Assembly: GCA_018671895.1 (NCBI GenBank) | Contig: JABHGV010000061.1 | Location: 1-39,073, forward strand | DNA from: Rhodospirillaceae bacterium | GTDB lineage: Bacteria > Pseudomonadota > Alphaproteobacteria > Rhodospirillales > JABHCV01 | Direction of reading: 5' to 3' | DNA length: 39,073 nt | In this document: in pieces, positions 1,006-17,749 of the stretch | How positions within the stretch are numbered: position 1 is the first letter of the stretch | How the letters are laid out: every line of letters begins with the position of its first letter | The notes under the pieces: model-generated | The model's database searches: none | Told to the model about the DNA's origin: nothing | What the model saw: only the letters and a program-made list of their open reading frames with translations | Position numbers and translations under genes: made by a program

Positions 1006-1220
1006 CTGATAATTCCTCGCCAAAAGGTGTGAAGTCCAAGCTGTTCGGCGTATCCCTGATCATTCTGGCGTCACTTAATCTGATGGTTTCCTGGCGCGGA
1101 AGTCTGGACGTCAGTTTATGGCAAGTACTGATATTGGGAATCGGCATCGCCGTATTCGCATTCGGTGCCGTAAAACAGAGTGACAAGCCTCGTGACAAAA
1201 ATTTGAATATTAATTTGTAA
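1002..1220 (+). CDS. small two-helix membrane protein, unknown function
   Basis: This 72-residue ORF starts inside the stop of the haem-subunit gene (ATGA overlap), so it is probably translationally coupled to it. It has two hydrophobic segments, around residues 15-29 and 40-58, and short charged ends, consistent with a hairpin membrane protein. I recognise no domain. Its place between a membrane-anchored haem subunit and cofactor genes suggests an accessory or assembly role in the same respiratory complex, but that is inference from position only. Confidence 0.6.
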   Translation: MTDNSSPKGVKSKLFGVSLIILASLNLMVSWRGSLDVSLWQVLILGIGIAVFAFGAVKQSDKPRDKNLNINL

Positions 1221-1260
1221 ATTGTCGACATAAGCCCACCAAAACACAGGATTACACAAC

Positions 1261-2964: not shown

Positions 2965-4274
2965 AAAAGGTGACGACAGTTGAAGCCCCGTTCCTGGTCG
3001 CGTTAAACCTGACACGGCGCTGCAATCTCAGATGTTCCCATTGTTATCTGGATGCCGGAATGCGCCGGGACGGGGATGGTAGCGAGTTGTCGACCGACGA
3101 GGTCAAGAAAACCATCGACGATATTGCAGCTTTAAGCGACGAAACCATGATCGTATTAACCGGCGGCGAACCTTTGTTGCGCCGCGATCTGGATGAACTG
3201 GCATCATACGTCACCGGTTTGGGACTGATGGCGGTTGTCGGCACGAACGCAACGACTCTCGACGACAAGCGCGCCAAACGCCTGAAAGATGCGGGGGTGC
3301 AGGGGGTTGGTATTAGCATCGATTCTCTTGATCCCGGATATCATGACAATTTCAGGGGGATGCCAGGCGCATGGGAAAAGGCTATGCGGGGCATTGATGC
3401 CTGCCGCAACAACGATCTTCGCTTCCAGATTCATTTTTCCGTTACTGATGACAACGCCCATGAACTTGATGACGTAATTGCCTTTGCAAGGGCATCAAAG
3501 GCGTTCGTACTTAACATCTTCTTTTTGGTCTGCACGGGGCGTGGTGAAAAGGTAACTAACATTTCCGTCAAGACCTATGAGCAGGTTCTGGAAAAAATTA
3601 CCCTGGCCGCTCGTCAAGAGGACGGCTTGATCATCCGCGCCAAATGCGCACCACATTTCAAGCGCATGGCGCTGGAACTGGATTCATCATGGCCAGTGAC
3701 TTCAGCACATGGATATGAGGCCGGAGGATGCCTGGCCGGAACCCGCTATGCCCGGGTCACGCCGGACGGCGACGTAACGCCATGTCCATACATGGAAACA
3801 TCTGTCGGCAACATACGAGATACATCTTTCGCCGAGTTATGGACCGATGCCCCGGTATTCAAACAACTGCGAGCCCCCGTGCTGGAGGGACGTTGCGGGG
3901 CGTGTGAATATTCCAAACTGTGTGGCGGGTGTCGGGCGCGTCCTCTGGCCCGCGATGACAACATGATGGGCGAGGATTTCCTCTGCGATTACCAGCCCGG
4001 CGGTGGTGCAGTAATCGAGCCGCTGGGTATTGAAGAAAGCACGATGACATGGACGCCAGGGGCGGAAGAATGGCTTGGGCGAATTCCGTCATTTGTTCGC
4101 CGCTTCGTAAGGGTCCGGGCCGAAAAATTCGTCCGCGATCAAGGTGGCAATGAAGTTACGGCTGAAGTTATGGGCATGCTGGCGCGGAAAAAATTCAAAG
4201 GCCGCGGTAAACCGCCATCATTTCCCTCCAAGCCCCCCCAGGATTCTGCAAAGAACCGGTTGGGGATCAAGTAA
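2961..4274 (+). CDS. SPASM radical SAM protein with C-terminal PCP_red domain, haem-biosynthesis type
   Basis: The 437-residue protein carries the radical SAM cluster motif CNLRCSHC (C-x3-C-x2-C) near residue 21 in an NLTRRCNLRCSHCYLD context, as in NirJ/AhbC/AhbD and PqqE relatives. GGEP follows near residue 68. A cysteine-rich SPASM region spans about residues 255-350 (GGCLAG, CPYM, CGACEYSKLCGGC, LCDY) and would bind one or two auxiliary [4Fe-4S] clusters. The last ~60 residues (WTPGAEEWL, IPSFVRRFVR, VTAEVM) match PCP_red, as in the preceding UspA protein. The chosen start is TTG, overlapping the upstream stop and preceded by GGAGAGG; a GTG nine bases later is also possible. Its porphyrinogen-oxidase neighbour suggests tetrapyrrole or haem maturation; the substrate is not determined. 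Confidence 0.87.
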   Translation: MKKVTTVEAPFLVALNLTRRCNLRCSHCYLDAGMRRDGDGSELSTDEVKKTIDDIAALSDETMIVLTGGEPLLRRDLDELASYVTGLGLMAVVGTNATTLDDKRAKRLKDAGVQGVGISIDSLDPGYHDNFRGMPGAWEKAMRGIDACRNNDLRFQIHFSVTDDNAHELDDVIAFARASKAFVLNIFFLVCTGRGEKVTNISVKTYEQVLEKITLAARQEDGLIIRAKCAPHFKRMALELDSSWPVTSAHGYEAGGCLAGTRYARVTPDGDVTPCPYMETSVGNIRDTSFAELWTDAPVFKQLRAPVLEGRCGACEYSKLCGGCRARPLARDDNMMGEDFLCDYQPGGGAVIEPLGIEESTMTWTPGAEEWLGRIPSFVRRFVRVRAEKFVRDQGGNEVTAEVMGMLARKKFKGRGKPPSFPSKPPQDSAKNRLGIK

Positions 4275-5686
4275 TGACATTTGATGTTGCTATCATCGGC
4301 AGTGGTGTTTCCGGTCTCAGTGCTGCCTATGAATTAACCGGCATGGGCTACAAGGTTGTCGTTCTTGAACGCCAGGTAAACCCCGGCGGAAATGCAGTAT
4401 CGGAACGTATCGACGGCTTTTTGATGGAACATGGCCCCAGTTCGGTCAATGCGCAGGCGATGGAGGCTGTTGGTCTGTCTGAAGACCTTGGACTCGATTG
4501 TGTGCGCACGGAACTGGGGGAAGACGTAAAATCGCGCTATCTGGTCGGTGATGGCCGCTTGCAGGGAATCTCGACCCATCCTTTGGGATTCTTGATGTCA
4601 GGCTACCTGTCGCCCATGGCGCGGCTTCGATTAGTATCGGAAATGGCCGTACCACGGTGTCAAAAGACCGGGGAAGAAAGCGTCGCCGAATTCTGGTCTC
4701 GACGTTTCGGACGTGAATTTACTGAAAAGGTTATAGATCCGTTGGTTGCCGGCCTGTATGCGGGCAAGGCAGAAAATCTGTCTGTCGATGCCGTCTTTCC
4801 GGCCATCGTTGAAATGGAACACAAGTACGGTTCAATTTCACGGGCAATCCTGAGCAAACGCTTTGCCAATGGCAAAATGCCGGGGCGACGATTGTTCTCG
4901 TGGGCTGATGGCATCGGAACCCTGTCGTCATCACTTGCCGAACAGCTTGGAAGTACCATCAGGACAGGCGTTACGGTTACTTCTCTGAATCACAATGCCA
5001 ATGGATTTACCGTTAAAACCGCCAATTCAGGGAACCTGAACGCGCGCGCCGTCATAATAGCAACCCAGCCACATGTCTCGTCGGCTCTGCTGGAGACGAT
5101 AGATGCCAAGGCGGCCGAAGCGATTTCGGAAATAGTCGCGCCACCAATAGCCGTCGCCTATCTGGGCTATCGGCGCGATCAGGTCGATCATCCACTTGAT
5201 GGAGTAGGGTATCTTTCCCCGGCGAATGAAAAACGCATGCTGAGTGGTGCCCTGTTTCCCTCGACAATGTTTAAGGGGCGGGCGCCCGAAGGCCATGTTG
5301 CGCTGTCAGGCTACATTGGTGGAGCCCGAGCGCCCGATAGGGCGAAGATGAGCGCAGATGATATTATCGCCATGGCCCAAGACGAATTTCGTGATCTTCT
5401 GGGTACCAGGGGTGATCCGGTCATTTCGCGCGTGCGCCATTGGCCACAAGGGTTGCCACAGCTTACAAAGGGTCATTCGGAACGATTGAAGCAAATTCAT
5501 ATTGCCGAACGGAACTATCCCGGCTTGTTCGTGACTGGAAACTATTTTACAGGCCCTGCGATTGCCAGTTGTCTGAAGCAGTCGTTCGAGACATGCACAC
5601 GAATTGACAAGTATTTTGACAGCCAGCACGGAAGCGGAAAAACTGAGCAGACAGAGATGCAGGAAGCGTCATACACTTGTGCCTGA
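4274..5686 (+). CDS. hemG: protoporphyrinogen/coproporphyrinogen oxidase, HemG/HemY type
   Basis: The protein is a 470-residue flavoprotein. It begins with an FAD-binding Rossmann motif (IIGSGVSGLSAAYEL) and has a second glycine-rich motif after VVLERQ. The EHGPSS segment near residue 53 and the C-terminal FAD-contacting segment (GLFVTGNYFTGPAIASC) are typical of oxygen-dependent protoporphyrinogen IX oxidase or coproporphyrinogen III oxidase. It oxidises a porphyrinogen to the porphyrin late in haem synthesis. The start codon overlaps the radical SAM stop (TAATG), indicating coupled translation. Its position among respiratory haem-protein and SCO genes suggests a dedicated haem supply for this operon. 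The choice between protoporphyrinogen and coproporphyrinogen as substrate cannot be made from sequence alone. Confidence 0.9.
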   Translation: MTFDVAIIGSGVSGLSAAYELTGMGYKVVVLERQVNPGGNAVSERIDGFLMEHGPSSVNAQAMEAVGLSEDLGLDCVRTELGEDVKSRYLVGDGRLQGISTHPLGFLMSGYLSPMARLRLVSEMAVPRCQKTGEESVAEFWSRRFGREFTEKVIDPLVAGLYAGKAENLSVDAVFPAIVEMEHKYGSISRAILSKRFANGKMPGRRLFSWADGIGTLSSSLAEQLGSTIRTGVTVTSLNHNANGFTVKTANSGNLNARAVIIATQPHVSSALLETIDAKAAEAISEIVAPPIAVAYLGYRRDQVDHPLDGVGYLSPANEKRMLSGALFPSTMFKGRAPEGHVALSGYIGGARAPDRAKMSADDIIAMAQDEFRDLLGTRGDPVISRVRHWPQGLPQLTKGHSERLKQIHIAERNYPGLFVTGNYFTGPAIASCLKQSFETCTRIDKYFDSQHGSGKTEQTEMQEASYTCA

Positions 5687-5688
5687 AA

Positions 5689-6360
5689 ATGAAAAAATCT
5701 CCTTTATTGATAATCTGTTTCGTCGTCGTGGTTGCCATTTCAATGATGACCCCGGCTTATTCGAGCGGCGACGAAGATTCAAAACTGGCTCTTTATGGTC
5801 AATATGGTGGGCCATTCAGCCTTGTTGACCATCATGGAAAGACCGTCACCGACCGGGATTTCCTCGGTCAGTATGTCTTGATGTTTTTTGGTTACACCTA
5901 TTGCCCGGATGTCTGTCCAACTTCCATGCAAGTGATCAGTGACGTTCTTGATATTCTCGGCGAGGAGGGCAAGAACATCCAGCCAGTCTTCATCAGCGTC
6001 GATCCGGACCGTGATACGCCAGAGGCGTTGGGCAGCTTTATCAGCAACTTCCATCCCCGCATGATTGCCCTGACCGGACCGAAAGAACAGATTGTTCCCG
6101 TTGCCGATGATTTCGGCGTAACCTACTTCAAGGTATTCACCCCTCCGTCCATTGGCGAGTCAGGCGATAGCGATGACGACACAGATCAAACCGCTAACGA
6201 TGATTACCTAATCAGTCACTCGGCTGCTGCTTATTTGATGGGGACAGATGGAAAATTTATCACCATTTTTCCGTTCGGAATGCCGCCTGAAATCATCGCA
6301 TCGGGGATTAGAAGTATCTTCAGCGCAAGTATCAAGGCGACTGGAAAAAGCGGGTCATGA
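5689..6360 (+). CDS. SCO1/SenC family copper chaperone / thiol-disulfide protein
   Basis: The protein has an N-terminal signal sequence or anchor (KKSPLLIICFVVVVAISMM) followed by a thioredoxin-like SCO domain. The copper-binding CPDVC motif is in GYTYCPDVCPTSM, the third ligand histidine is in LISHSAAAYL, and VDPDRDTPEAL is the usual SCO motif. SCO proteins deliver copper to, or reduce cysteines of, the CuA site of cytochrome oxidase and related periplasmic enzymes. An acidic insert (GDSDDDTDQTANDD) precedes the His. I chose the ATG three bases after the hemG stop; a TTG at 5677 overlapping hemG is an alternative with a better-placed AGGA. The 3' end overlaps the convergent membrane-protein gene by 29 bp. 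Confidence 0.9.
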   Translation: MKKSPLLIICFVVVVAISMMTPAYSSGDEDSKLALYGQYGGPFSLVDHHGKTVTDRDFLGQYVLMFFGYTYCPDVCPTSMQVISDVLDILGEEGKNIQPVFISVDPDRDTPEALGSFISNFHPRMIALTGPKEQIVPVADDFGVTYFKVFTPPSIGESGDSDDDTDQTANDDYLISHSAAAYLMGTDGKFITIFPFGMPPEIIASGIRSIFSASIKATGKSGS

Positions 6361-7100: not shown

Positions 7101-7703
7101 TCATTTGATGTCACCCGCATTACGCATTTGCTTTTCTTGGTCTGGCGTCATTCCCAGGGTTCGCCCTTCAGCAATAGAATAGTCGAGTGACCCACCCATG
7201 GAGATCCTGTATGCCGCCCACATCCCCCCTAGCAGGGCGGGTGTCGGTGCGTATACCAAGGATGGTTTGGCACTGAAGGACACGATCACATCGCCGAACA
7301 AAGCCGTCTGTTCGGGTGTCGGCATGTAGTCCTTTATGGGAATGTTAAAATACGCCATTCCCGCAGCTTCCGTTTCCTGACGGTGGTCATCCAATGCGTG
7401 AGGGGGGGGGCCGAGATCAATAACCGCGTCAAATCCGAATGGCACTAAATCTTTGATGCGGGAGATCGGTCGGCCATGGGTCATGGTCATGTAAGGTGCC
7501 GCCCGGCCGGGGTCGGGAACGGCGATTCCATAGCCGCGGTTATCCGGTAGTCTGGCCATGTTAGGGGTATAGGAATGGGCGGCGGCGCCAAAATCTCTTT
7601 TCTGGTCCCGGTTCATTTCGCCATCGCCCCACCAGCCGCATGCGTTTGCGCTGGCCGCTGGCAATAACAATGAGAAAAGCAGAAAATTCCGGATAGCAAC
7701 CAT
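7101..7703 (-). CDS. exported DUF442/PTP-like protein lacking the catalytic Cys and Arg (pseudo-phosphatase)
   Basis: The 200-residue protein has an N-terminal signal sequence (NFLLFSLLLPAASANA). It then follows the DUF442/beta-lactamase-hydrolase-like fold of the PTP superfamily: FGFDAVIDLGPP, a helix with ETEAAGMAYFNIPIKDY, and a C-terminal LVY...GGMWAAYR segment. In active members the last segment carries HCxxGxxR; here the same place reads YAPTPAL, so the nucleophilic Cys, the preceding His and the Arg are all absent. It lies 26 bp after the TorD-like gene, as the last gene of the leftward molybdoenzyme operon. It is probably periplasmic and may bind a ligand or partner rather than catalyse; that is inference. 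A run of nine C residues lies inside its coding strand. Confidence 0.72.
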   Translation of the reverse strand: MVAIRNFLLFSLLLPAASANACGWWGDGEMNRDQKRDFGAAAHSYTPNMARLPDNRGYGIAVPDPGRAAPYMTMTHGRPISRIKDLVPFGFDAVIDLGPPPHALDDHRQETEAAGMAYFNIPIKDYMPTPEQTALFGDVIVSFSAKPSLVYAPTPALLGGMWAAYRISMGGSLDYSIAEGRTLGMTPDQEKQMRNAGDIK

Positions 7704-7729: not shown

Positions 7730-8413
7730 TCAAGCGGAAAGCCGGTCTCTTTCTTCCACTTCGGTGATGAGGGTTTGCAGGGTCTCTTTTTCGAAGTCCA
7801 TGAACCCCTTGGTGACCTCGGAAAATTGCCGATAAAAAATATGACTGGCCAATTCCGCAACAGTGTCACAGAAATCTGACACCCAGTGCGACAGGTGTTC
7901 ATCATAAAATTTATTTTCTATATTCAAAATATTGCGGCCCAGATCGTCCTGTTCATTGATCCACGCATTGGCTTCTTTAAGCAGCAACTGTTGCATGAAT
8001 TCAAACTCGGCGCTGATGTGATCGGGCATGCCGCCGAAGGAATCATCGACTTCAAGTCCGACCGTCTGCATAAATTTTTTCACTTCAACTGTTCGATCAC
8101 CCCAAAGGGCTTTCTTCTCTCCAAACCGGGCTTCTGTATGCATGGATTCATGTGGAGAAATATGATTGGTTGGCCCGATGAACAGTCTTGTAAATTCAAC
8201 GGCAAGGTCATCAACAAGCTGTACGTAAGGTGTGTTTTCAAACATCTCGTCCAGAGATAGATTGAGGGCGTGGAAGGAGCCGGAAAATTCCGGCTCCCCA
8301 AGATTGATCAGGAAAGCCTCTGATGGCTCCTCCCGGAAAACATCGGCCAAAAGACCATATACATTGGCTCGCGCCATTGCCATTTCGGCCATGTTGTTCC
8401 GGGATTCCACCAT
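7730..8413 (-). CDS. TorD/DmsD-family molybdoenzyme maturation chaperone
   Basis: The 227-residue all-helical protein begins MVESRNNMAEMAMARANVYGLLADVFREEP, where the NVYGLLADVFREEPSE segment is the usual first helix of TorD-family chaperones. The family binds the twin-arginine leader of a molybdenum enzyme and holds the apoenzyme until cofactor insertion. I chose the ATG at 8413 because AAGGAGAGA lies just upstream; longer in-frame starts would run back into the catalytic-subunit gene. It follows the catalytic subunit by 28 bp in the same operon, so that subunit is the likely client. Confidence 0.85.
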   Translation of the reverse strand: MVESRNNMAEMAMARANVYGLLADVFREEPSEAFLINLGEPEFSGSFHALNLSLDEMFENTPYVQLVDDLAVEFTRLFIGPTNHISPHESMHTEARFGEKKALWGDRTVEVKKFMQTVGLEVDDSFGGMPDHISAEFEFMQQLLLKEANAWINEQDDLGRNILNIENKFYDEHLSHWVSDFCDTVAELASHIFYRQFSEVTKGFMDFEKETLQTLITEVEERDRLSA

Positions 8414-8441
8414 TATCTTCTCTCCTTGCGGTTTAAGCCTG

Positions 8442-10964
8442 TTAGGCTTTCGATACTTTGACAACCGTATCCATCCAGCGCTGGGTTCCGCTAATCGGAT
8501 CAGAACTGTTCGGAATAACGGCATTCGGATGAACACCATGCGTCTTCCACGTCATGTTCTTGACGTCAGGATCGGACGATCCACCGGCATTCATCGGGTT
8601 ATTTTTCCCCGATCCATAGATGCCGGAAAACTTCCTGCCAAAGTGATGCGATATGGCGATGATACCGGGGACGATGCCTTCTGTGACGTAGGCCGTCGTC
8701 GTGATTTCACCGACATCACTCTTCACTTTGATCTTGTCACCATCCTTGATGCCACGTTCTGTAGCGGTCTTGGTGTTGATCCAGCCCGGGTTGTCGTGCT
8801 TGATCTCGGACAGCCATTTGCATTGGGTGGTCCGGGAATGCGTGTGCACGGCGACCTTGTAGGTGGTCAGGATGATATCGTCCTTGCCCATGGCCTCATG
8901 CTCAGGCGTCGGTGTATAAGTCGGGAACGCCGGTAGACCTTTCTTGACAAAGTTGTCGGAGTAGAAATCCAACAGACCTGATTTGACGAACTTCGTGTTC
9001 GGCGGATATGCCTTACGCGGCGTTCCCTCGATGTCCTGGGCGACATAAGCGCTTTTGGCACCACTGACCCCCAGATAGCCTTTGCTCTTGGCTTCGGCGG
9101 CACTGACACCAGCCTTTTTATGGTTCCAGTAAACGCCAGTCTTTTTGTCCAGGATCACACCATCACCTGAAACATCGACTTTCGCTTCATAGAAGCCATA
9201 GTTGGGCTTGGCGTTCTTGTCGTGCCAGACGCCGTGTTTGACCATGTAATCAAAACCACCGGCTTCCTTGACGCCAGGCGTCATGTCGCAGGTCTGTTTG
9301 ACGAAGTCCTTCTTGCTCGAATAAACGAGATCGAAGCCAAGTCTCTTCGCCAGTTCCGGCCATACATCACCCTGGCATCTCGATTCGCCCAGGGGCTTGA
9401 CCAGCGGTTGACGAATGTAGTTTTCGCCAATTTGACTGGCATCGACCATATCTTCCCAATCCCAACGTTCCAGATAGGTAACGTCTGGCAGGATGATGTC
9501 CGCATACTGTGATGACTCGTCGTATGCGATGGTCGTGGTGATCAGGAACGGGAAGATGGTCTCGTCCTGGAAGGCCTTGGCGGCCTCTTTGTTGTTGCCG
9601 TTGATGTAAGTCGGATTGTAACAGCTCCACCAGTAGACGCTTGGCCGACCGTGACTGCCATCAATGATCATCGGAATGATCGATTGGCTGACATGGTGGG
9701 TCGGATAGGCTGCTTCGCCAGGGAAACCGTCCTTGATGTGCAACCCTTTGCTTACCTTCGCCGGTTTTGACGAAGGAGCATTCCAGCTGCCGCCGACACC
9801 CATGACACGACCACCGGCGGTATCAAGGTTGTTGGTAATAGCAGCAAGCAACATCGCGGCCCGTTCTTGATCGGCACCGTGGTAGTGCATGACGGTTCCA
9901 CGATAGGTCACCAGACAGGCCGACTTGGCCTTGGCAAATCCACGCGCAATCTCCTTGATCTTGGAGGCTGGAACACCGCTTTTCTTGGCGGCGAATTCAG
10001 GTGTGAACTTGGCCACCTGTTTCTTGACCGCCGCGATTTTCTGGGCCGTTGTCGCATGATGATCGGGTGTAACCCGCATGTACTTGAAGTGGTCCTTGCG
10101 GAACAGTCCTTCGTTCATAATGACGTTGATCATCGACAACATTACCAATCCATCATAACCAGGATTGATAGGAACCCACTCAGTCGACTTCGCCGCAGTA
10201 TTCGAAAGCCTGACATCGAACGTGTAAAGCGGCACCCCACGATCGACCACGGCCCGGATCAAACGCTGTGACGTCGGGATATGGTTGGTATGGGTCTCGA
10301 AGTTGTTGGAACCGAAATTGACCACGAAGTCGGTTTTATCGTAGTCCCAATTGTCATACATACCACCCCACAGGCTTTCCTGACCAACCCACTTGGCGGC
10401 TTCACACACGGAGGTGTGGTTACCGATGGTCTTGGTGCCGTAGGCCGCAAGAAAATCACCGGTGACGGCCCATTGGGAAGCTTTGTGACGACCGTAGGCA
10501 TACATGAACTGTTCAGGCGTACCTGCATCACGAAGCGGTTTCAGCTTGCTGGCAATGATATCCAGGGCTTCGTCCCAGGAAATCCTTTTCCACTTATGCT
10601 CACCGCGTTTGCCGACGCGCTGTAACGGGTAAAGAATGCGATCCGGGAAGTAGACCTGATTAATTCCGGCCTGACCCTTGGCGCACAATTTGCCGAGGGT
10701 ACGGATCGATTCTGGGTGCCCCTCCAGCTTTTTCAGCCTGCCGTCTTCGACGTAACCGATCATTGAGTCACGGGTCACACATCCCCAACACGCGGTTGGA
10801 ATGGCTTTACGTTCCTTGCCGGTTATTGGCGAGAAGTCACGGCCACCGTTTTTAAATGTAACGGTTCCGGCCAGGGCTTTCCTGGGCTTGCCGACGCCTG
10901 CCGCAATAGCGGCACCACTGGCACCAGCAAGTGTCATGAAGTTTCGACGATTTAACTTTTTCAT
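8442..10964 (-). CDS. molybdopterin oxidoreductase catalytic subunit (PsrA/TtrA/ArrA-like CISM enzyme)
   Basis: The 840-residue DMSO-reductase-family enzyme starts with a twin-arginine leader (NRRNFMTLAGASGAA), so it is exported folded. The N-terminal Fe-S motif is C59-x2-C62-x3-D66-x27-C94 (ACWGCVTRDSM, then GKLCAKGQAG): Asp stands where the third Cys is expected. Cys187 in GNHTSVCEAAKW is the probable Mo ligand. A bis-MGD dinucleotide-binding C-terminal domain (about residues 690-840) ends at WMDTVVKVSKA. Length and motifs suit the sulfur/arsenic oxyanion clade (polysulfide, tetrathionate, arsenate). I cannot assign the substrate or direction. The second of two close ATGs is used because AAGGA then sits eight bases upstream. 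Partners are the Fe-S and multihaem genes upstream. Confidence 0.92.
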   Translation of the reverse strand: MKKLNRRNFMTLAGASGAAIAAGVGKPRKALAGTVTFKNGGRDFSPITGKERKAIPTACWGCVTRDSMIGYVEDGRLKKLEGHPESIRTLGKLCAKGQAGINQVYFPDRILYPLQRVGKRGEHKWKRISWDEALDIIASKLKPLRDAGTPEQFMYAYGRHKASQWAVTGDFLAAYGTKTIGNHTSVCEAAKWVGQESLWGGMYDNWDYDKTDFVVNFGSNNFETHTNHIPTSQRLIRAVVDRGVPLYTFDVRLSNTAAKSTEWVPINPGYDGLVMLSMINVIMNEGLFRKDHFKYMRVTPDHHATTAQKIAAVKKQVAKFTPEFAAKKSGVPASKIKEIARGFAKAKSACLVTYRGTVMHYHGADQERAAMLLAAITNNLDTAGGRVMGVGGSWNAPSSKPAKVSKGLHIKDGFPGEAAYPTHHVSQSIIPMIIDGSHGRPSVYWWSCYNPTYINGNNKEAAKAFQDETIFPFLITTTIAYDESSQYADIILPDVTYLERWDWEDMVDASQIGENYIRQPLVKPLGESRCQGDVWPELAKRLGFDLVYSSKKDFVKQTCDMTPGVKEAGGFDYMVKHGVWHDKNAKPNYGFYEAKVDVSGDGVILDKKTGVYWNHKKAGVSAAEAKSKGYLGVSGAKSAYVAQDIEGTPRKAYPPNTKFVKSGLLDFYSDNFVKKGLPAFPTYTPTPEHEAMGKDDIILTTYKVAVHTHSRTTQCKWLSEIKHDNPGWINTKTATERGIKDGDKIKVKSDVGEITTTAYVTEGIVPGIIAISHHFGRKFSGIYGSGKNNPMNAGGSSDPDVKNMTWKTHGVHPNAVIPNSSDPISGTQRWMDTVVKVSKA

Positions 10965-10992
10965 TTTCATCTTCCTTATCTGGTTGCTGGGC

Positions 10993-11835
10993 CTAAGGGA
11001 TCAGGTCCACGTAGTGGTCCAATTTGCCTTTTTCACGCTTCTTGTAGAGTTCCGCCAACATGTTATCGGGGTCGATATAGAAAACATGCGGATCGGTCCC
11101 TTCCTTCGGAAGCAGGACGTTTTTGGCAAGATCGTGTTCCTTGACCAGTTTTGCGACTTCGCTGTTCGAGTCGTTGAGATCGCCAAAGATGCGGGCACGA
11201 CCCTGACAAGTATTGACACAAGACGGGTCAATACCATTGGCAACCCTTTCCTTGCACATGTCGCACTTGTCGGCGGCTTGCTTTTCAGGTTTCTTGCCGG
11301 CCTTGACGAACGGGTTGAATGAACGAACGCCATAGGGGCAGGCGTCGATGCACTTGCCGCAACCGATACACAGTTCAGAATCAATCAACACCAAACCATC
11401 GGGGCGTTTGTAGGTGGCACCACCGCGATAGCGGATCTTGGAACCATCCGGCGTGACGAAGGTCATGCGCTTGCCTGGGTATTCCGGACATTCCTTGACG
11501 CATGGCGGGACACCATCTTTTTTGTTGCCCTCGCAATGGTTACACATGATTGGCAGGAAGCCTTTTTTGACTTTCGGGAAAGTGCCATAAGTCTTTTCCT
11601 GCACAACAGTTCTAAAACGCCCAAGCGAGACATCGTTTTCAGCTTTGCACGCAACCGTGCAGGCCCTGCAGCCGATACATTTGCGCAGGTCCATAACCAT
11701 GACCCAACGCGGGGCCTTGGCCGCAGCTTCTGCTCTGGTGACGGGCGTCGTCATTGCCGCCGCCCCGGCGACTGTTACACCGGCGCTCTTGAGAACATCG
11801 CGTCTGCCAATGTCCGGTTTGTCGATTTTATTCAT
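10993..11835 (-). CDS. four-cluster ferredoxin-like electron-transfer subunit (PsrB/TtrB/NrfC type)
   Basis: The 280-residue protein has a twin-arginine leader (GRRDVLKSAGVTVAGAAAM) and sixteen cysteines in four groups. These are CIGCRACTVAC, CNHC..CVKEC, CIGCGKC..AC and CDMC..CVNTC, the arrangement of DmsB/PsrB/TtrB subunits that carry four [4Fe-4S] clusters. It should pass electrons between the catalytic subunit and the multihaem cytochrome on the periplasmic side. The ATG at 11835 is preferred: GGGAG lies eight bases upstream, and the longer frame would need TTG. The gene is 28 bp upstream of the catalytic gene and 78 bp after the cytochrome gene. Confidence 0.93.
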   Translation of the reverse strand: MNKIDKPDIGRRDVLKSAGVTVAGAAAMTTPVTRAEAAAKAPRWVMVMDLRKCIGCRACTVACKAENDVSLGRFRTVVQEKTYGTFPKVKKGFLPIMCNHCEGNKKDGVPPCVKECPEYPGKRMTFVTPDGSKIRYRGGATYKRPDGLVLIDSELCIGCGKCIDACPYGVRSFNPFVKAGKKPEKQAADKCDMCKERVANGIDPSCVNTCQGRARIFGDLNDSNSEVAKLVKEHDLAKNVLLPKEGTDPHVFYIDPDNMLAELYKKREKGKLDHYVDLIP

Positions 11836-11913
11836 GTCCAAATCTCCCTATTGTCATTTTGACCTCCTAAATTTCCACATAATCCAAACACGGGGTGTTG
11901 ACCCTCTGTTCGT

Positions 11914-13464
11914 TCATCCGCCCTCGGCAAGCAAGTCGATGGCGTCTTCTAAATATCCGTAGACTTCGTCGATAATGGTGATTGCGTATTTCTTGTTGTG
12001 AACGCCGTTGCCGATACGCACGACATCCAGCAATTCGATGCCCGAGGTGATCATTTGATCAACCTTGGAAAGGGTCTCTGCATTGACGCCCGCCAGTTTG
12101 GCATTCGCTCTGGCCTGCTGGGCTTCAAGCAATACTTCCTCGGCGCCGGTGATTTCCGTGCCGACTTGTTTGCGCCAGTCGGACAGCATTTTCTTGTGTT
12201 CCGGCGTATGGCATGCGGCGCAGGTTTCCGGTGCGCCGGTCCTAACGGTATGGCCTTTGCTCAATGATTTTTTGAGGTGACAGCCCATGCAATTCGTATT
12301 GACACTGAACATCAGATGCGGCGTCGCGCGAATACCCTCAGTGACAGGAATGCCGGCGAGCAGGTACTTCTGATATTTGTGCTGATCCTGATGACAGAGC
12401 GTGCAGTCTTCGCGCACGAAGTCGAGATGATCGGTACGGTTCTTGTGCTCGATAACACCATGACAGTCGAAGCAGTCGGCGCGGGGCTTGGCGATGTGCT
12501 CGTCGTGCATCAATTTGCCGTTCGCAGCAGTCGACAACAGTTCGTCGCTGCGGTTGTGGCATTTCAAGCAGCCGTTAGAGACGACATTGCCGGTGTTGAT
12601 TTCGCCATGTCCCTTGACGACCTCGAAATGGCAGCCTTCGCACGCCACGCCTGCTTCCTTTATGGACTGGTGGGTGATTGCCTTGACCTTGGAGTCATCC
12701 GCGCTCAGTTGCCCTTGCAGGGATTTTGTCGGAATGATGTGACAGATGTCGCACTTGGATGCGCCCTGATTGAAGTCGATTGTCGGCCGTTGCCGGAAGC
12801 TGATTTCTTCGACGGATTTTTCACCGATGGTTACCTTTTCAACCTCGGCAACTTCCAGCGTCTGTTTGCCGAGTTTCAGGTGGCACAGGAAGCAGACATC
12901 CTTGGGCACTTCAAAATGTTTGTCTTCCGTGACCTTGAAATGGCAGGTATCGCAGGTCAGCTTCTGGCCTTTCAGGGCCTTGTCGCCAAAATGCGGCTTG
13001 TGTTTGAAGCGCACCTTCTCGGTGAATTTCAGTTCCTTGTCCTGAAGTTTTTCGACCGAATGGCAGCCCGATTGCAAACAAGCCCCGTCTTTGATGACAG
13101 GACGAATTGGCAGTGGCGCTTCCGGGTCGTACAGATAGGCGGCGAGATGCCGCAGCCCTTCCATTTTGGCTTTGAATCCGTGTTTCTCGCCGGGCAGGAA
13201 GTGACAGTCGACGCATTCAGCCTGCGTTCCCTCGGCGCTTTTCGAAGCGTGGTGCTTGCTGCTTTTCCATCCTTCGTACTGTTCGGTCATGGTGTGGCAT
13301 GAACCACCACAGAAAGACGATTGCGAGGTATAGGCCTCTTGGGCGAACCAGGCACCGGACAACAAAACGACGCCAACAACGGTTGCCACCGCTGCCGAGG
13401 TCCATGTCAATGTAAACCGAAGACTCAAGTCGTCTCCCCCAACCCTGTCTTTTTTCGTCGCCAT
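11914..13464 (-). CDS. membrane-anchored twelve-haem c-type cytochrome (NapC/NirT-like N-terminus)
   Basis: After a short N-terminus, one transmembrane helix (SAAVATVVGVVLLSGAWF) is followed by a NapC/NrfH-like segment. I count twelve haem-binding motifs: ten CXXCH (CVDCH, CDTCH, CFLCH, CDICH, CEGCH, CLKCH, CFDCH, CTLCH, CMGCH, CAACH), one CX3CH (CGGSCHTM, with the Met two residues after His as in NapC/NrfH haem 1) and one CX4CH (CLQSGCH). The last ~90 residues are haem-free and helical. It probably oxidises or reduces the quinone pool and serves as membrane partner for the Fe-S and molybdenum subunits, since no NrfD/PsrC gene is present. The start at 13464 is preferred because the predicted sigma-54 transcript begins near 13510; an in-frame ATG at 13500 would leave almost no leader. 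Confidence 0.88.
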   Translation of the reverse strand: MATKKDRVGGDDLSLRFTLTWTSAAVATVVGVVLLSGAWFAQEAYTSQSSFCGGSCHTMTEQYEGWKSSKHHASKSAEGTQAECVDCHFLPGEKHGFKAKMEGLRHLAAYLYDPEAPLPIRPVIKDGACLQSGCHSVEKLQDKELKFTEKVRFKHKPHFGDKALKGQKLTCDTCHFKVTEDKHFEVPKDVCFLCHLKLGKQTLEVAEVEKVTIGEKSVEEISFRQRPTIDFNQGASKCDICHIIPTKSLQGQLSADDSKVKAITHQSIKEAGVACEGCHFEVVKGHGEINTGNVVSNGCLKCHNRSDELLSTAANGKLMHDEHIAKPRADCFDCHGVIEHKNRTDHLDFVREDCTLCHQDQHKYQKYLLAGIPVTEGIRATPHLMFSVNTNCMGCHLKKSLSKGHTVRTGAPETCAACHTPEHKKMLSDWRKQVGTEITGAEEVLLEAQQARANAKLAGVNAETLSKVDQMITSGIELLDVVRIGNGVHNKKYAITIIDEVYGYLEDAIDLLAEGG

Positions 13465-13520
13465 CGACTGGTCTGTAAATAAAACCAGGCATATGACCAT
13501 CTTTTTTATAGGGAATTAAA

Positions 13521-13536
13521 AGCATATTCCGTGCCA
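13521..13536 (-). promoter_or_regulatory. sigma-54 (-24/-12) promoter for the multihaem/molybdoenzyme operon
   Basis: Read on the minus strand the sequence is TGGCAC-GGAAT-ATGCT: a perfect -24 TGGCAC element and a -12 ATGC with exactly ten bases between the invariant GG and GC. Transcription would start near 13510 and run leftward into the cytochrome gene. An NtrC-family activator is encoded next door, and two paired inverted repeats lie about 110 and 203 bp upstream of the start, the usual range for sigma-54 enhancers. Confidence 0.8.
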
Positions 13537-13613
13537 GACTCCTTAACCATCTGTACTTGCAGGAAGTTTTGACCGTCCGTGGGGGGCGTCCTGTGGATAA
13601 CTAGCCGTTGGTG

Positions 13614-13627
13614 TTACCAATCGGTAA
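13614..13627. promoter_or_regulatory. putative activator-binding site 1 (TTACC-AATC-GGTAA)
   Basis: This is an inverted repeat with five-base arms and a four-base centre, about 110 bp upstream of the predicted leftward sigma-54 start. It shares arms and spacing with the longer palindrome 93 bp further away. It is likely an enhancer for the adjacent NtrC-family regulator; the regulator's real target motif is not known to me. Confidence 0.6.
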
Positions 13628-13703
13628 TGCCGGGGCCAGCAAGGTAACGAAGACGGTATTTGCAAACGGATACATGAGGTTGGTGGTGTTTTTAGGGAAT
13701 TGG

Positions 13704-13723
13704 ATGTTACCCGAGGGTAACAT
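13704..13723. promoter_or_regulatory. putative activator-binding site 2, perfect palindrome containing TTACC-CGAG-GGTAA
   Basis: The nine-base arms ATGTTACCC and GGGTAACAT are exact complements around a GA centre. The core has the same TTACC-N4-GGTAA form as site 1. The two centres are 93 bp apart, close to nine helical turns, so both sites would face the same side of the DNA. Confidence 0.7.
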
Positions 13724-13940
13724 CTTGCCGTCGACACGACCGTCAGCAACCCGAGCGAAAGACGATGCGAAGACATCAGGGGTTTGCGAAAATCTATTTT
13801 AGGGCGGATAATTCTCTGGTCGTTGAAACATAAAAGTGAATAACAGAATGTTCGACGCCATGTGACGCGATGGGAAGACACGGGGAGTGAGGCTAGGAGC
13901 CTCTTCAAAAACAACACGATCCTTCCGTAAGGAGGAACAT

Positions 13941-14876
13941 GTGGGTAAACGCTGGGCCGCAAATCTGTTTTTGGTCGTTTTTTTGTATTTCGGCGGCGCC
14001 ACCCATGGGCGCGCCGATCATGTGGAAATAGCGCAGTCTGCCGAGCCCATTCGTTTTGGCCTGACCGCCGTGGTCGTTCGCGAGAACCTTCGCTTCCTGG
14101 ACCGGTGGGCCCACTACCTGAGCGAAAAAATGGGGCAGCCCGTTAAGTTCATTCGCCGCCGGTCATACCGCGAAGTGATGGATATGCTAGAGACAGGCAG
14201 TCTGGATTTTGCCTGGATTTGTGGATTTCCATATGTCCAGAAACGCGATCCGGAATTCATCAAGTTGCTTTCCGTACCAGTCTATAAAGGTAAACCGCTT
14301 TATCAGTCCTTCATCATCGTCCACAAGGACAGCCCCTATAAGTCCCTGGAAGACCTGAAGGGAAAAACCTTTGCGTTCTCTGATCCGGAATCCAATTCCG
14401 GCTATTTGTATCCGCAATATCTTCTGTTCGATAAAGGGACCAACAAGGAAGCTTTCTTCCGCCAGACCTTTTTTACCTACAACCATGCAGAAACCATTGA
14501 AGCCGTTGCCGAACAGTTCGCCAATGGTGGCGCCGTCGATTCTTATATCTGGGATTACCTGAAAGAATTCAGCCCCGAACTGGCAAACAAGACCCGGGTT
14601 ATCAAGAAGTCCCCGGAATTCGGTTTCCCCCCCATCGTCGCCCGCGTTGGTGTCGACCTTGAAGTCGTCTGGCGAATGAAAAAAGCCATGAAGGAAATGG
14701 AAGCCGACCCACGCGGGCGCAAGTTTCTGGATGGCCTGAAGCTGGATAGTTTCGGCGATTTCCCGGCCAGCCTTTTTGAAAACATTCGTGAAATGGTTCT
14801 GAAAACACGGACCCTTCAACCAGAGGCAAGGTCTGCGACACCCGGTGAAAGTGTCAGCATGGTTCGTATGGAATGA
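13941..14876 (+). CDS. periplasmic PhnD-like oxyanion-binding protein (AioX/ArxX-type sensor component)
   Basis: The 311-residue protein has a signal peptide (AANLFLVVFLYFGGATHGRA) and then a phosphate/phosphonate-binding (PhnD/DUF3365-like PBP2) fold. Recognisable segments are RFGLTAVVVRENL, a helix with LDRWAHYLSEKMGQPV, DFAWICGFPYV, and KGKTFAFSDPESNSGY. There are no ABC transporter genes beside it; instead it overlaps a sensor kinase by ATGA. That is the layout of AioX-AioS-AioR and ArxX-ArxS-ArxR, where a PhnD-like protein presents its ligand to the kinase. Cys94 in WICGFPYV is the only cysteine I see in the mature protein. I chose GTG at 13941 because AAGGAGG lies five bases upstream; an ATG two bases earlier is out of frame. 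Confidence 0.86.
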   Translation: MGKRWAANLFLVVFLYFGGATHGRADHVEIAQSAEPIRFGLTAVVVRENLRFLDRWAHYLSEKMGQPVKFIRRRSYREVMDMLETGSLDFAWICGFPYVQKRDPEFIKLLSVPVYKGKPLYQSFIIVHKDSPYKSLEDLKGKTFAFSDPESNSGYLYPQYLLFDKGTNKEAFFRQTFFTYNHAETIEAVAEQFANGGAVDSYIWDYLKEFSPELANKTRVIKKSPEFGFPPIVARVGVDLEVVWRMKKAMKEMEADPRGRKFLDGLKLDSFGDFPASLFENIREMVLKTRTLQPEARSATPGESVSMVRME

Positions 14877-16345
14877 CGAAGCTGAACTTTTTCCATAAAG
14901 GTCTGTCCTTTAAATTCGCCCTGACCATTACAGCCGTCGTTGCAGGCGTGGCATTTACCATTGGCGCGGTCATCGTGACGATGGACTGGAAACGTTTTCA
15001 GCGTGAACTGGAAGACAGAGCCCTGCTGCTGGCTCATTCCATTGCCGTGACAGCGCCTGAAGACATCCTGCGAAGCGATTACTGGTCGCTCTACAAAAGT
15101 CTTAAGAACATGGCCAATCAGGCCCCCGGGGGAATGCGCGATACGCGGATTCTGACGGGCATGGTGCTTGACCCTGGCGGCGCAATTCTTGCCCACCTAA
15201 GACCCAATGAAAACCCCTTGGGATTGCGCCCGAAACATTCCGGGGAACTGGAAACACGCATGTTTAATTCGGCAATATCCGCCAGCGTACCGACCATCAT
15301 AAGAGGCGGCATCGGCGAGGACGGATTTCTGGAAGGGGTCGTGCCGATTTATTCCGATGAAAAGCTGCTTGGTGTTGTCCGCATCAGGCTGTCGTACAAC
15401 GAACTCTACCTAAAAGCCCAACGTTCCGCATTTGTCATTATCGGACTGACGCTTGCTCTTGTCTTTCTTGGCAGCCTGCTCGGTGCCTTAATCTCCAGGC
15501 GCATCACCAAGCCCCTGACCGCCATGACAGAAGGCATGGAAGCGGTTAGCCGCGGCGATCTGATCAACATCTCCCATGTTCCGGCAACGAACGATGATGA
15601 ACTCGGCAGGTTGGCCACGACCTTCAACAAAATGGCTGTCGAACTTTCCGACAAGAAGATGCTTGAAGAGCAAATGGCAGTCAGTGAAAAGTTGGTGGCG
15701 CTTGGCCGTATCACCGCCGGCGTCGCCCACGAGGTTAATACGCCGCTGGCCGGCATGATGAACTGTGTCGACACCCTGAAGAAACACCCTGATGACCATC
15801 AATTGCTGGAACGATACCTGCCGTTGCTTGACAAGGGGCTTCACCGCATCCGCTTGATTGTCAAAAGCCTGTTGGTCGAGCTGCGCGTCGAAGATGCCAC
15901 CGAGACTTGCGACCCGTCATGCCTTGACGAGGTGAAAGAACTGGTCGAGGCCGAAATCAATGGCAAAGGAATCAATTTCATCTGGGAAAACCATCTGGAT
16001 GGAGATTTGCAAGTCAGCAGCAATCAGATTCAACAAATCGTCCATAACCTGTTGCGTAACGCCGTTCAGGTGCTGCCCGAAGGGGGAACCGTCAGCTTCC
16101 GTTCCTTTAAGGATGACAACTGCATGGTTTTCGAGATCGATGATGATGGGCCGGGCATACCGGCCGATCATAAAAATCAGTTGTTTGACCCTTTCTTCAC
16201 GACCCGCTTGAACGGTACCGGTTTGGGCCTTTGGATCGTTTACAGGCTTGTTGAAAGCATGCGCGGCATGATCGACGTTGAAAGTGAAGTCGGTCACGGC
16301 ACCCGTTTTCAGGTCACCTTGCCGGCAACCGATGGAAGCGCATAA
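14873..16345 (+). CDS. membrane sensor histidine kinase (AioS/ArxS/NtrB-like)
   Basis: The 490-residue kinase has one helix at about residues 13-35 and a second at about 178-200, enclosing a ~140-residue periplasmic domain. A HAMP segment follows (RRITKPLTAMTEGMEAV), then a HisKA domain with the phosphorylated His in GVAHEVNTPLAG near residue 286, and a HATPase domain with N box (NLLRNAVQ), DDDGPGIP and GTGLGLWIV. It overlaps the binding-protein gene by four bases and is three bases before the response regulator. The inferred job is to read ligand occupancy of the adjacent periplasmic protein and phosphorylate the NtrC-type activator. Confidence 0.93.
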   Translation: MTKLNFFHKGLSFKFALTITAVVAGVAFTIGAVIVTMDWKRFQRELEDRALLLAHSIAVTAPEDILRSDYWSLYKSLKNMANQAPGGMRDTRILTGMVLDPGGAILAHLRPNENPLGLRPKHSGELETRMFNSAISASVPTIIRGGIGEDGFLEGVVPIYSDEKLLGVVRIRLSYNELYLKAQRSAFVIIGLTLALVFLGSLLGALISRRITKPLTAMTEGMEAVSRGDLINISHVPATNDDELGRLATTFNKMAVELSDKKMLEEQMAVSEKLVALGRITAGVAHEVNTPLAGMMNCVDTLKKHPDDHQLLERYLPLLDKGLHRIRLIVKSLLVELRVEDATETCDPSCLDEVKELVEAEINGKGINFIWENHLDGDLQVSSNQIQQIVHNLLRNAVQVLPEGGTVSFRSFKDDNCMVFEIDDDGPGIPADHKNQLFDPFFTTRLNGTGLGLWIVYRLVESMRGMIDVESEVGHGTRFQVTLPATDGSA

Positions 16346-16348
16346 GGA

Positions 16349-17749
16349 ATGAAACAGCCCATATCATCAGCGGCCGATCCTCAAGATTATTCCGGCCTGT
16401 GCGTACTTATTGTCGAAGATGACGAGATCATTCGCCTGTCGCTCGAGGACCGCCTGCGGCTCGAAGGTATCCCCGTCAGATCCGCACAGGACGTCGCCGA
16501 AGCCAGTCAACAATTGCAAAAAGGCGATGTCGATCTGGTCATTTCCGACATCCGTCTTCCCGACGGCTCTGGTGCAGATTTATTCGATGATATATCGCAA
16601 CACTATCCAGGAACGCCTGTGATCTTGATGACGGCCTATGGAGAGATCACGGATGCCGTAAACTTGGTGAAGGCCGGTGCCGCAGATTACCTGACCAAGC
16701 CCTTCAAAATGGATGACTTTGTTGAAAAAATTCATCGTCATTTATCGCGACTTAACGACACATATCTTTCGGCCGGGTTTCTGCGCAGCGACGATGAATC
16801 CTTTCGCCCGGGCAGCGGCGTCCTCGGAAGAAGCTCTTCCATGCGCCGCATCGAGCGCCTTGTTGGCCGCCTGTCTGATGCTGATAGTTCGGTCTTGATT
16901 TCGGGCGAGTCCGGTGTTGGCAAGGAAGTCGTTGCGACATTAATTCACCACAACAGCCCCCGGGTGTCCGGTCCTTTGATAACGGTGAATTGCGCCGCTT
17001 TGCCGCCCAATCTTATTGAAAGCGAACTGTTCGGACATGAAAAGGGAGCTTTCACCGGGGCCACCAATCGCCGCATCGGTCGCTTCGAGCAGGCCCAGAA
17101 GGGAACTATTTTTCTCGATGAGATCGCTGAGATTCCTACCGAAATACAAGTCAAGCTACTGCGTGTTATTCAGGAGCGTGAAATCGAAAGAGTTGGGGGT
17201 GAAAAGTCCATTCCCCTCGACGTGCGCATCATTGCCGCAACCCAGGTCGACCTGGATGAAGCTGTTAAGGTCGGGACTTTCCGAACAGACCTATACTGGC
17301 GACTGAATGTCATTCGCATTCATATTCCATCGCTTCGCGATCGACAGGAAGATGTGCTTTATCTGTCGCGCCTGTTCGTCGAGGAGCAGGCATTGAAATT
17401 CGGTGTGCCGGTTAACGGTCTTAGCGCCGATGCAGAAGCCCGTCTGATGTCGATGACATTTCCCGGAAACGTCCGCGAGCTGAAAAACATCCTGGAACGG
17501 GCCGTCGTGCTTTGCGATGGCCCCCGCGTGACGGAACACGACTTGCTGCCATTGGATGACGATCTTATGGACGATGCGGCCAAGCATAATACGTTGAAGG
17601 AATCCATTGCTTCGGCGGAACGTCAGGCCATTTTCCACGCGCTGGTCGAAAGTGGGTGGGTGATCGGCGAAGCGGCCCAGTTGCTGGGTATTTCGCGAAA
17701 GAACCTGTGGGAAAAAATGAAGCGATATGGGATCGAGAAAGAAAATTGA
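16349..17749 (+). CDS. sigma-54-dependent NtrC-family response regulator
   Basis: The 466-residue protein has a receiver domain (IVEDDE; phospho-acceptor Asp67 in [10 protein letters not shown]; Lys in LTKPF). Next is a complete AAA+ sigma-54 interaction domain with Walker A GESGVGKE, the sigma-54-contacting GAFTGA loop and FLDEI Walker B. It ends in a Fis-type helix-turn-helix ([23 protein letters not shown]). It is co-transcribed with the sensor kinase and binding protein. The sigma-54 promoter and paired inverted repeats beside this operon are its likely targets, which would place the divergent molybdoenzyme operon under its control. Confidence 0.95.

Follow-up and report, generated by a model that had tools for sequence, protein, structure and literature searches.

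A shared control region of the AioXSR/ArxXSR type with widely spaced operators at a candidate arsenic molybdoenzyme operon of a Rhodospirillaceae bacterium

The window analysed here is a stretch of 39,073 nucleotides from a Rhodospirillaceae bacterium (contig JABHGV010000061.1), in which two operons diverge from one intergenic region (Table 1). The leftward operon encodes a multihaem cytochrome, an iron-sulfur (FeS) subunit, a molybdoenzyme designated MoA, and a chaperone. The rightward operon encodes a periplasmic binding protein, a histidine kinase, and a response regulator, which we call X, S, and R, or XSR when taken together.

Table 1. Genes and control elements of the locus (window positions)
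Feature	Position	Strand	Remarks
200-aa protein, no named family	7101..7703	minus	homologues adjoin several orthologous operons
TorD/NarJ-type chaperone	7730..8539	minus	true start probably internal
MoA, DMSO-reductase-family catalytic subunit	8442..10970	minus	twin-arginine signal (by reading); Cys189 likely Mo ligand
TtrB/DsrO-like 4Fe-4S electron-transfer subunit	10993..11841	minus
NapC/NrfH-type cytochrome with further c3/c7-like haem domains	11914..13464	minus	start 13464 inferred
Sigma-54 -24/-12 element TGGCACGGAATATGCT	13521..13536	minus	expected start near 13510 (predicted)
Proximal operator ATTACCGATTGGTAAC	13613..13628	minus	TTACC-N4-GGTAA core TTACCAATCGGTAA at 13614-13627, exact
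GTTACC half-site	13643..13648	minus	20 bp upstream of proximal operator
Distal operator GTTACCCTCGGGTAAC	13706..13721	minus	TTACC-N4-GGTAA core TTACCCGAGGGTAA at 13707-13720, exact
Sigma-70-like promoter of regulator operon, TTGCGA-N17-GATAAT	13784..13812	plus
X, AioX/ArxX-type periplasmic binding protein	13941..14876	plus	likely arsenite sensor; GTG start inferred
S, membrane histidine kinase with HAMP, HisKA, HATPase	14873..16345	plus
R, NtrC-family response regulator: receiver, AAA+ with GAFTGA, Fis-type HTH	16349..17749	plus

The most likely start of X is GTG 13941, which is preceded by AAGGAGG. The cytochrome, with its 12 CXnCH haem motifs (10 CX2CH, one CX3CH, and one CX4CH), can hardly start at the listed ATG 13500, because the transcript is expected to begin near 13510. 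The ATG at 13464 fits, and alignments to 15 orthologues start at residues 15-35; two of seven alignments from a separate BLAST search of the cytochrome start earlier, at residues 2 and 7. A Pfam search with the 200-aa protein gave no match even at E 10. Homologues of this protein, 36-49% identical, lie in either orientation beside several orthologous operons. Positions 112-6360 of the window are occupied by a cluster of ethylbenzene-dehydrogenase-type haem protein, Usp/PCP_red, radical SAM/SPASM, amine oxidase-like flavoprotein, and SCO1 genes.

An earlier note on this DNA had described a leftward -24/-12 element at 13521-13536 and two TTACC-N4-GGTAA repeats 93 bp apart, with centres about 110 and 203 bp from the predicted transcript start. 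Both observations hold. The promoter element is one mismatch from TGGCAC-N5-TTGCW. Its looser form TGGCAC-N5-WTGCW has a single match in the window, with 0.13 expected and at least one match in 12 of 100 shuffles, so that the element alone is weak evidence. It is unremarkable by itself, but its position is conserved and the genome contains rpoN. The features of a sigma-54 promoter are present: GG and GC 10 bp apart, and paired sites 100-200 bp upstream. The two repeats are exact, centred at 13620.5 and 13713.5 (110 and 203 bp from the start near 13510). The distal operator is the 16-mer GTTACC-N4-GGTAAC, and the proximal one has one outer base changed. The expected number of exact TTACC-N4-GGTAA matches is 0.02 per window, and two were found in none of 100 shuffles. 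In the whole genome (2.5 Mb) the exact pattern occurs only at these two positions; a reversed control pattern has three matches. The unusual feature is the presence of both copies at one place, 93 bp apart.

A GTTAC[CT] half-site at 20-21 bp, like that of the window, occurs in 10 of 15 loci and is missing in five. TTGCGA-N17-GATAAT is likely a housekeeping promoter for the regulator genes; TTGCRA-N17-GATAAT stands 78 bp beyond the distal operator in five of 13 divergent loci, the window included, and eight are without it. We also noted a DnaA-box-like word [TC]TATCCACA at window positions 13592-13600 (minus strand TTATCCACA). Counted from the start of the proximal operator, it begins exactly 28 bp further on in seven of eight inner-clade loci (the window, L012, L013, L014, L153, L154, and L156; the exception is L149) and in none of the five outer loci checked (L015, L016, L146, L148, and L155).

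Conservation among orthologous loci had been proposed in the earlier note as a check on the palindromes. The pair is kept at 91-95 bp in all 15 loci that have both the cytochrome operon and XSR (the window, L012, L013, L015, L016, L018, L032, L033, L146, L148, L149, and L153-L156) and is absent from both orthologous operons without XSR (L147 and L017; Fisher p 0.007). Pairs were searched at 85-100 bp, and an unrestricted scan finds the same sites. In L032 and L033, XSR lies downstream on the same strand, and L155 is cut inside S. Three duplicate records (L034, L045, and L057) were excluded, and L014, whose contig starts 198 bp before the cytochrome match and shows the proximal site only, was set aside. 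Within 200 bp, the highest-scoring -24/-12 match (13 or 14 of 15 points) is 88-92 bp from the proximal palindrome, or 102 bp in L016.

Among 317 genomes of the order, a strict form of the pair (gap of 74-84 bp; 88-98 bp apart) was found in 18, compared with two for the reversed control. In 11 of these the pair adjoins X, together with S and R unless a contig end cuts them. The 18 genomes comprise nine with the cytochrome operon, one with XSR and no MoA (L150), one with arx and XSR (L151), and seven of one genus. The cytochrome itself is present in 16 genomes at 1e-60, seven of which give no strict match: G005 is cut, G012 and G189 have no adjoining XSR, and G013, G017, G065, and G097 have one arm base changed. 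In L150 (8910-10222), XSR and both palindromes are intact and the stretch contains no molybdoenzyme; the next gene is a hydantoinase-like ORF that appears truncated at the N-terminus, suggestive of a lost operon. The single genus, g31, has TTTACC-like palindrome pairs 98 bp apart in seven of 29 searched species (L152 9859; L157 9633-9697); in L157 an additional copy lies between the two, at 49 bp. The two g31 loci that were read, L152 and L157, contain no homologue of the operon, XSR, or MoA.

The divergent operon was already known from the earlier note to encode an NtrC-family activator with GAFTGA, and the motif is indeed found in R; the arsenic-sensing type of the operon went unrecognised there. 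It is an AioXSR/ArxXSR-type module. The HAMP kinase and the AtoC-type sigma-54 regulator with GAFTGA adjoin the sensor, and the molybdoenzyme operon is preceded by an RpoN promoter with a 16-bp GTT...AAC operator upstream of it.

The operator of AioR is a 16-bp palindrome GT[TC][AC][CG]...AAC, of which GTTCGGATTTCCGAAC was footprinted in Agrobacterium GW4 (PMC5335332). The operator was compared with the recognition helix of R, which is SRKNLW in the window, in 45 loci that contain X and in which the tail of R can be read. For regulators with SRK[NST]LW, the site GTTAC-N6-GTAAC (9 or 10 of 10 matches) is present in 35 of 36 control regions, with 0.65 expected from shuffles; the only miss is L076, which has no operator at 9 of 10. 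None of these 36 loci has the GTTCG operator. The reverse is true for SRTTLW regulators, with GTTCG-N6-CGAAC in four of four loci and GTTAC in none, although these loci (NT-26 aio, M14 aio, ORIO arx, and one XSR of L087) are few and partly related. Desulfobacterota-type loci with an SRST helix have GTTAC in one of four cases, and one other locus (L044) has neither operator. Fisher tests of the association give 5e-5 and 1e-5, values that are weakened by shared ancestry. The GTTAC form is also found at beta-proteobacterial aio (Caballeronia, L171) and arx (Sulfuricella, L169).

Spacings approximate whole helical turns across the loci with two sites. They amount to 33 bp in NT-26, M14, ORIO, L065, L067, and L071; 40-44 bp in, e.g., L042, L051, L066, L072, L073, L097, L162, and L171; 90-95 bp in the window clade and L151; and 113 bp in L087. 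At the same threshold a single site is seen in, e.g., L063, L064, and L075. The long spacing of 90-95 bp marks the lineage of the window. That R binds the window palindromes, as the earlier note had supposed for the divergent activator, appears very probable, because the pair tracks XSR, sites of the same class are present at aio and arx promoters, and the operator co-varies with the recognition helix.

The motif had also been suggested as a means to find the rest of the regulon, and this proved true for some relatives and not for the genome of the window. Here GTTAC-N6-GTAAC at up to one mismatch has 17 sites compared with 91 for the reversed control, and no wider regulon emerges. The three exact sites are the distal operator, one at hda/perM, and one between hemE and a PPDK-regulator gene (names by ORF reading); the 14 one-mismatch sites are the proximal operator, two inside window ORFs (9467 and 32147), and 11 elsewhere. 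The genome has no second operator pair at either spacing searched, and short-spaced pairs in the order are at background level (4 of 317 genomes versus 4 for the control). Extra candidate targets were seen in relatives: in L042, operators precede moaA as well as a second MoA operon, and in L093 they lie between modA and a porin gene (names by ORF reading in both). Their location by moaA and modA would fit a regulator that helps to supply the molybdenum cofactor for its own enzyme. Gammaproteobacterial L042 has four operator pairs at 41-44 bp (578-634, 4135-4192, 5806-5865, and 13658-13715), placed ahead of moaA and two MoA operons and close to an unseen gene at the edge of the locus; it is likely a local regulon.

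The best PDB match of X is AioX (1.7e-64), ahead of ArrX (2.3e-38) and PhnD (2.7e-16). The pocket of AioX is given as Y88, C106, Y131, S161, S163, H192, and D210 in PMC5908839. Of the 55 X rows aligned, three of them duplicate records, 50 have all seven residues, and the window X is one of these 50. Thr replaces Ser163 in five rows (L035, L038, L040, L051, and L054). The AioX loop that closes over arsenite has a hydrophobic, AioX/ArxX-like counterpart in the window X, LTAVVVREN. Of ten oxyanions, AioX and ArxX bound arsenite alone (PMC5908839). ArrX shares the pocket yet binds arsenate (same source), so the pocket alone does not fix the ligand.

In a quick tree of X, the sensors of aio and arx systems are scattered among those of MoA-family loci. 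L051 X is sister to Sulfuricella ArxX (99), L063, L064, and L075 group with NT-26 and M14 AioX and ORIO ArxX (92), and the L151 arx sensor is placed close to the window group, where the tree is poorly resolved. A branch of its own (100) holds the Desulfobacterota/Firmicutes-type sensors, and L040 X is ArrX-like (ArrX 4.3e-52; AioX 3.4e-39). Since aio and arx sensors interleave with MoA-linked sensors and the pocket is kept, arsenite is the simplest guess for the ligand, and the signal is probably an arsenic oxyanion.

Scored against curated models, MoA reaches 312 bits for PhsA (cut-off 694), 153 for ArrA (1600), and 37 for AioA (arsenite_ox_L, 359); the true ArxA of L151 is likewise below the ArrA cut-off (464 of 1600 bits). 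The best PDB match is a PsrA-type enzyme deposited as a thiosulfate reductase. A 107-row tree, which is quick and unrooted, with some long branches and no ArrA row, separates 103 MoA relatives from three ArxA and one PhsA at 99. With all scores below cut-offs and this split from the ArxA and PhsA rows, MoA was not assigned to ArxA, ArrA, AioA, or PhsA. The As(III)-induced Soe-like enzyme of Thioalkalivibrio was also considered as a member of the family and set aside: it is without a Tat signal according to the description in PMC6620896, and MoA has one.

X is linked to 49 of the 103 MoA rows; the other 54 show no X in the DNA examined. The X-linked enzymes belong mainly to alphaproteobacterial cytochrome-type operons and to FeS-NrfD-MoA operons of Beta- and Gammaproteobacteria. 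The nearest sister clade of MoA paralogues is mostly without X (17 of 19), contig ends inflating the X-less counts. Four residues are conserved in the 103 rows, Arg161 in 98, His185 in 90, Thr186 in 90, and Cys189 in 96, and in the alignment they match the Arg and His-Ser-Ser-x-Cys that ArrA and the three ArxA have in common. In ArrA the aligned residues hold arsenate. The PhsA compared, a single sequence, has Ala in place of Arg and of Ser/Thr. One paralogous MoA clade, which is present in the window's own family (L027, L028, L029, and L061), departs from this pattern in all four rows: Arg161 is replaced by Trp, His185 by Gln, and the likely Mo ligand Cys189 by Ser, Gln, or Gly.

Arsenic resistance genes (ars) are near nine of 80 named loci, six of 40 with X versus three of 40 without X, which shows no clear link to X; one of the six X-linked cases (L079) is an ArsR-like HTH match alone. 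In Azoarcus KH32C an XSR/FeS/NrfD/MoA/TorD cluster is one hypothetical gene away from arsC-arsD-arsA-ACR3. ACR3 is encoded, along with rpoN, in the genome of the window, where no ArxA was found at 1e-60. There is one match to the AioA model, at 415 bits (cut-off 359) and 29% identical to NT-26 AioA. This AioA-like protein (L176, 1001-6598; G000 contig C13) is encoded behind two dihaem-peroxidase-like genes and a Rieske-like protein, a layout that we take to be that of iodate reductase, idrABP1P2; the end of a sigma-54 activator is just upstream of the cluster. As no ArxA was found at that threshold and the AioA-model match resembles an iodate reductase cluster, the principal candidate for an arsenic molybdoenzyme here is the MoA operon. 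Aromatoleum buckelii U120, A. toluclasticum MF63, and Hydrogenophaga taeniospiralis have MoA with XSR and neither ArxA at 1e-60 nor AioA over the cut-off; Herbaspirillum ST 5-3 has MoA-XSR, ArxA, and AioA.

With reasonable confidence we regard positions 13464-13941 as the control region that both operons share in a dedicated circuit of the AioXSR/ArxXSR type, and MoA as an arsenic oxidoreductase of a clade distinct from Aio, Arx, and Arr. Read from the DNA are the elements, how they are conserved and linked to XSR, and the match of operator and recognition helix; we infer binding, looping, signal, substrate, and direction. X, S, and R would be made from the sigma-70-type promoter. In the periplasm X would bind an arsenic oxyanion, most likely arsenite, and would activate the kinase S. 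Phosphorylated R would bind both GTTAC-N6-GTAAC operators, which are separated by about nine helical turns, possibly with help from the intervening half-site, and would loop to the sigma-54 RNA polymerase at TGGCAC-N5-ATGC, turning on the cytochrome-FeS-MoA-TorD operon. The enzyme would then act on arsenic, most likely as an arsenite oxidase in this organism. Action on arsenic is moderately likely. We propose tentatively that MoA and its relatives constitute a class of respiratory arsenic molybdoenzymes that has no name so far and is additional to Aio, Arx, and Arr, distributed in Alpha-, Beta-, and Gammaproteobacteria and Desulfobacterota, with arsenite oxidases accompanied by AioX-like sensors and arsenate reductases by ArrX-like ones. 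The oxidase assignment of MoA itself is slightly more tentative still.

A NapC-type cytochrome usually passes electrons to a reductase, which speaks against the oxidase direction, and the N-terminus of the cytochrome is of NapC/NrfH type. The circuit might operate as described with MoA as a reductase of arsenate, of a thioarsenate, or of a similar oxyanion, electrons passing from quinol through the NapC-type cytochrome and the FeS subunit to MoA, and X reporting exposure to arsenic and not the electron donor. In Desulfobacterota the same enzyme type (57% identity) is linked to the ArrX-like sensor of L040, which suggests an arsenate-reducing use there. The window X, however, is AioX/ArxX-like and not ArrX-like, and AioX and ArxX are reported in PMC5908839 to have bound only arsenite among the oxyanions compared. 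We consider a reductase unlikely in this organism.

About equally unlikely is a change of ligand, with X sensing an oxyanion of sulfur, selenium, antimony, or phosphorus, and MoA being a polysulfide/thiosulfate-type or antimonate-type (AnrA) enzyme. The PhsA and PsrA-type best matches of MoA are in line with this, as is the occurrence of homologues in the sulfur bacteria Allochromatium and Sedimenticola. Yet Cys106 and the six other pocket residues of X are unchanged, whereas PhnD is without the pocket Cys (PMC5908839). Moreover, MoA relatives are split from PhsA as well as from ArxA in the unrooted tree, PhsA has no active-site Arg, and the sensors of known arsenite systems are interleaved with MoA-linked ones. 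It is very improbable that a different DNA-binding protein uses the palindromes, or that they are a chance repeat, with R acting elsewhere: the conserved [TC]TATCCACA box nearby suggests that other proteins may act here, but the pair follows XSR (15/15 versus 0/2), including XSR without the enzyme (L150) and XSR with arx (L151), and the operator type tracks the R recognition helix.

Arsenic metabolisers are usually sought via aioA, arxA, and arrA. If so widespread a molybdoenzyme is indeed under an arsenite-type switch, a part of the arsenic cycle would be overlooked. MoA relatives under the same switch are found in many proteobacteria, a few of them near ars genes, and MoA is a good candidate for a novel form of arsenic metabolism. 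The idea is directly testable in the three cultured strains that have MoA and XSR without ArxA or AioA over the cut-off. In addition, the operator code, which pairs an SRK helix with GTTAC and an SRT helix with GTTCG, would make the targets of such systems readable from sequence.

Among the matches listed, we found no description in open-licence literature of XSR-linked molybdoenzymes beyond Aio, Arx, and Arr. Compared with the known systems, the circuit is, on the sequence evidence, real, conserved, and of a known kind; its target is new, and its operator spacing is long. It resembles AioXSR-aioBA of NT-26 and Agrobacterium GW4 in the PhnD-like arsenite sensor with a kept pocket, the HAMP kinase, the sigma-54-type regulator, the RpoN promoter (NT-26 TGGCACAACGATTGCA), and the 16-bp GTT...AAC operator. 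Unlike NT-26 aio, the window has GTTAC and not GTTCG operators, spaced by 93 and not 33 bp, and the target is a cytochrome-FeS-MoA operon instead of Rieske-AioA. With ArrXSR-arrAB it shares the sensor family and pocket, and MoA keeps the Arg, His-[ST], and Cys of ArrA; the differences are the AioX-like X and the low ArrA score of MoA. According to PMC5908839, the ArrR regulators in Chrysiogenetes and Firmicutes do not belong to the sigma-54 type. The similarity to PhsA/PsrA is confined to the best curated model, the best PDB match, and the Cys ligand, whereas MoA is under the PhsA cut-off and the active-site Arg is missing in the one PhsA compared. For arx, a putative ArxR-binding site has been named (PMC5908839), and control of arxAB by ArxXSR had not been demonstrated according to PMC6549141. 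The operon order and parts of arx differ from those of the window, which has the multihaem cytochrome and no NrfD-type ORF seen in its operon, and MoA is only about 27% identical to L151 ArxA and outside the three-row ArxA clade. The window nevertheless has the divergent XSR of ArxXSR-arxB2ABCD, its X is 53% identical to L151 ArxX with a nearly identical loop, and this arx operon of the same order has operators of the same kind at 90 bp.
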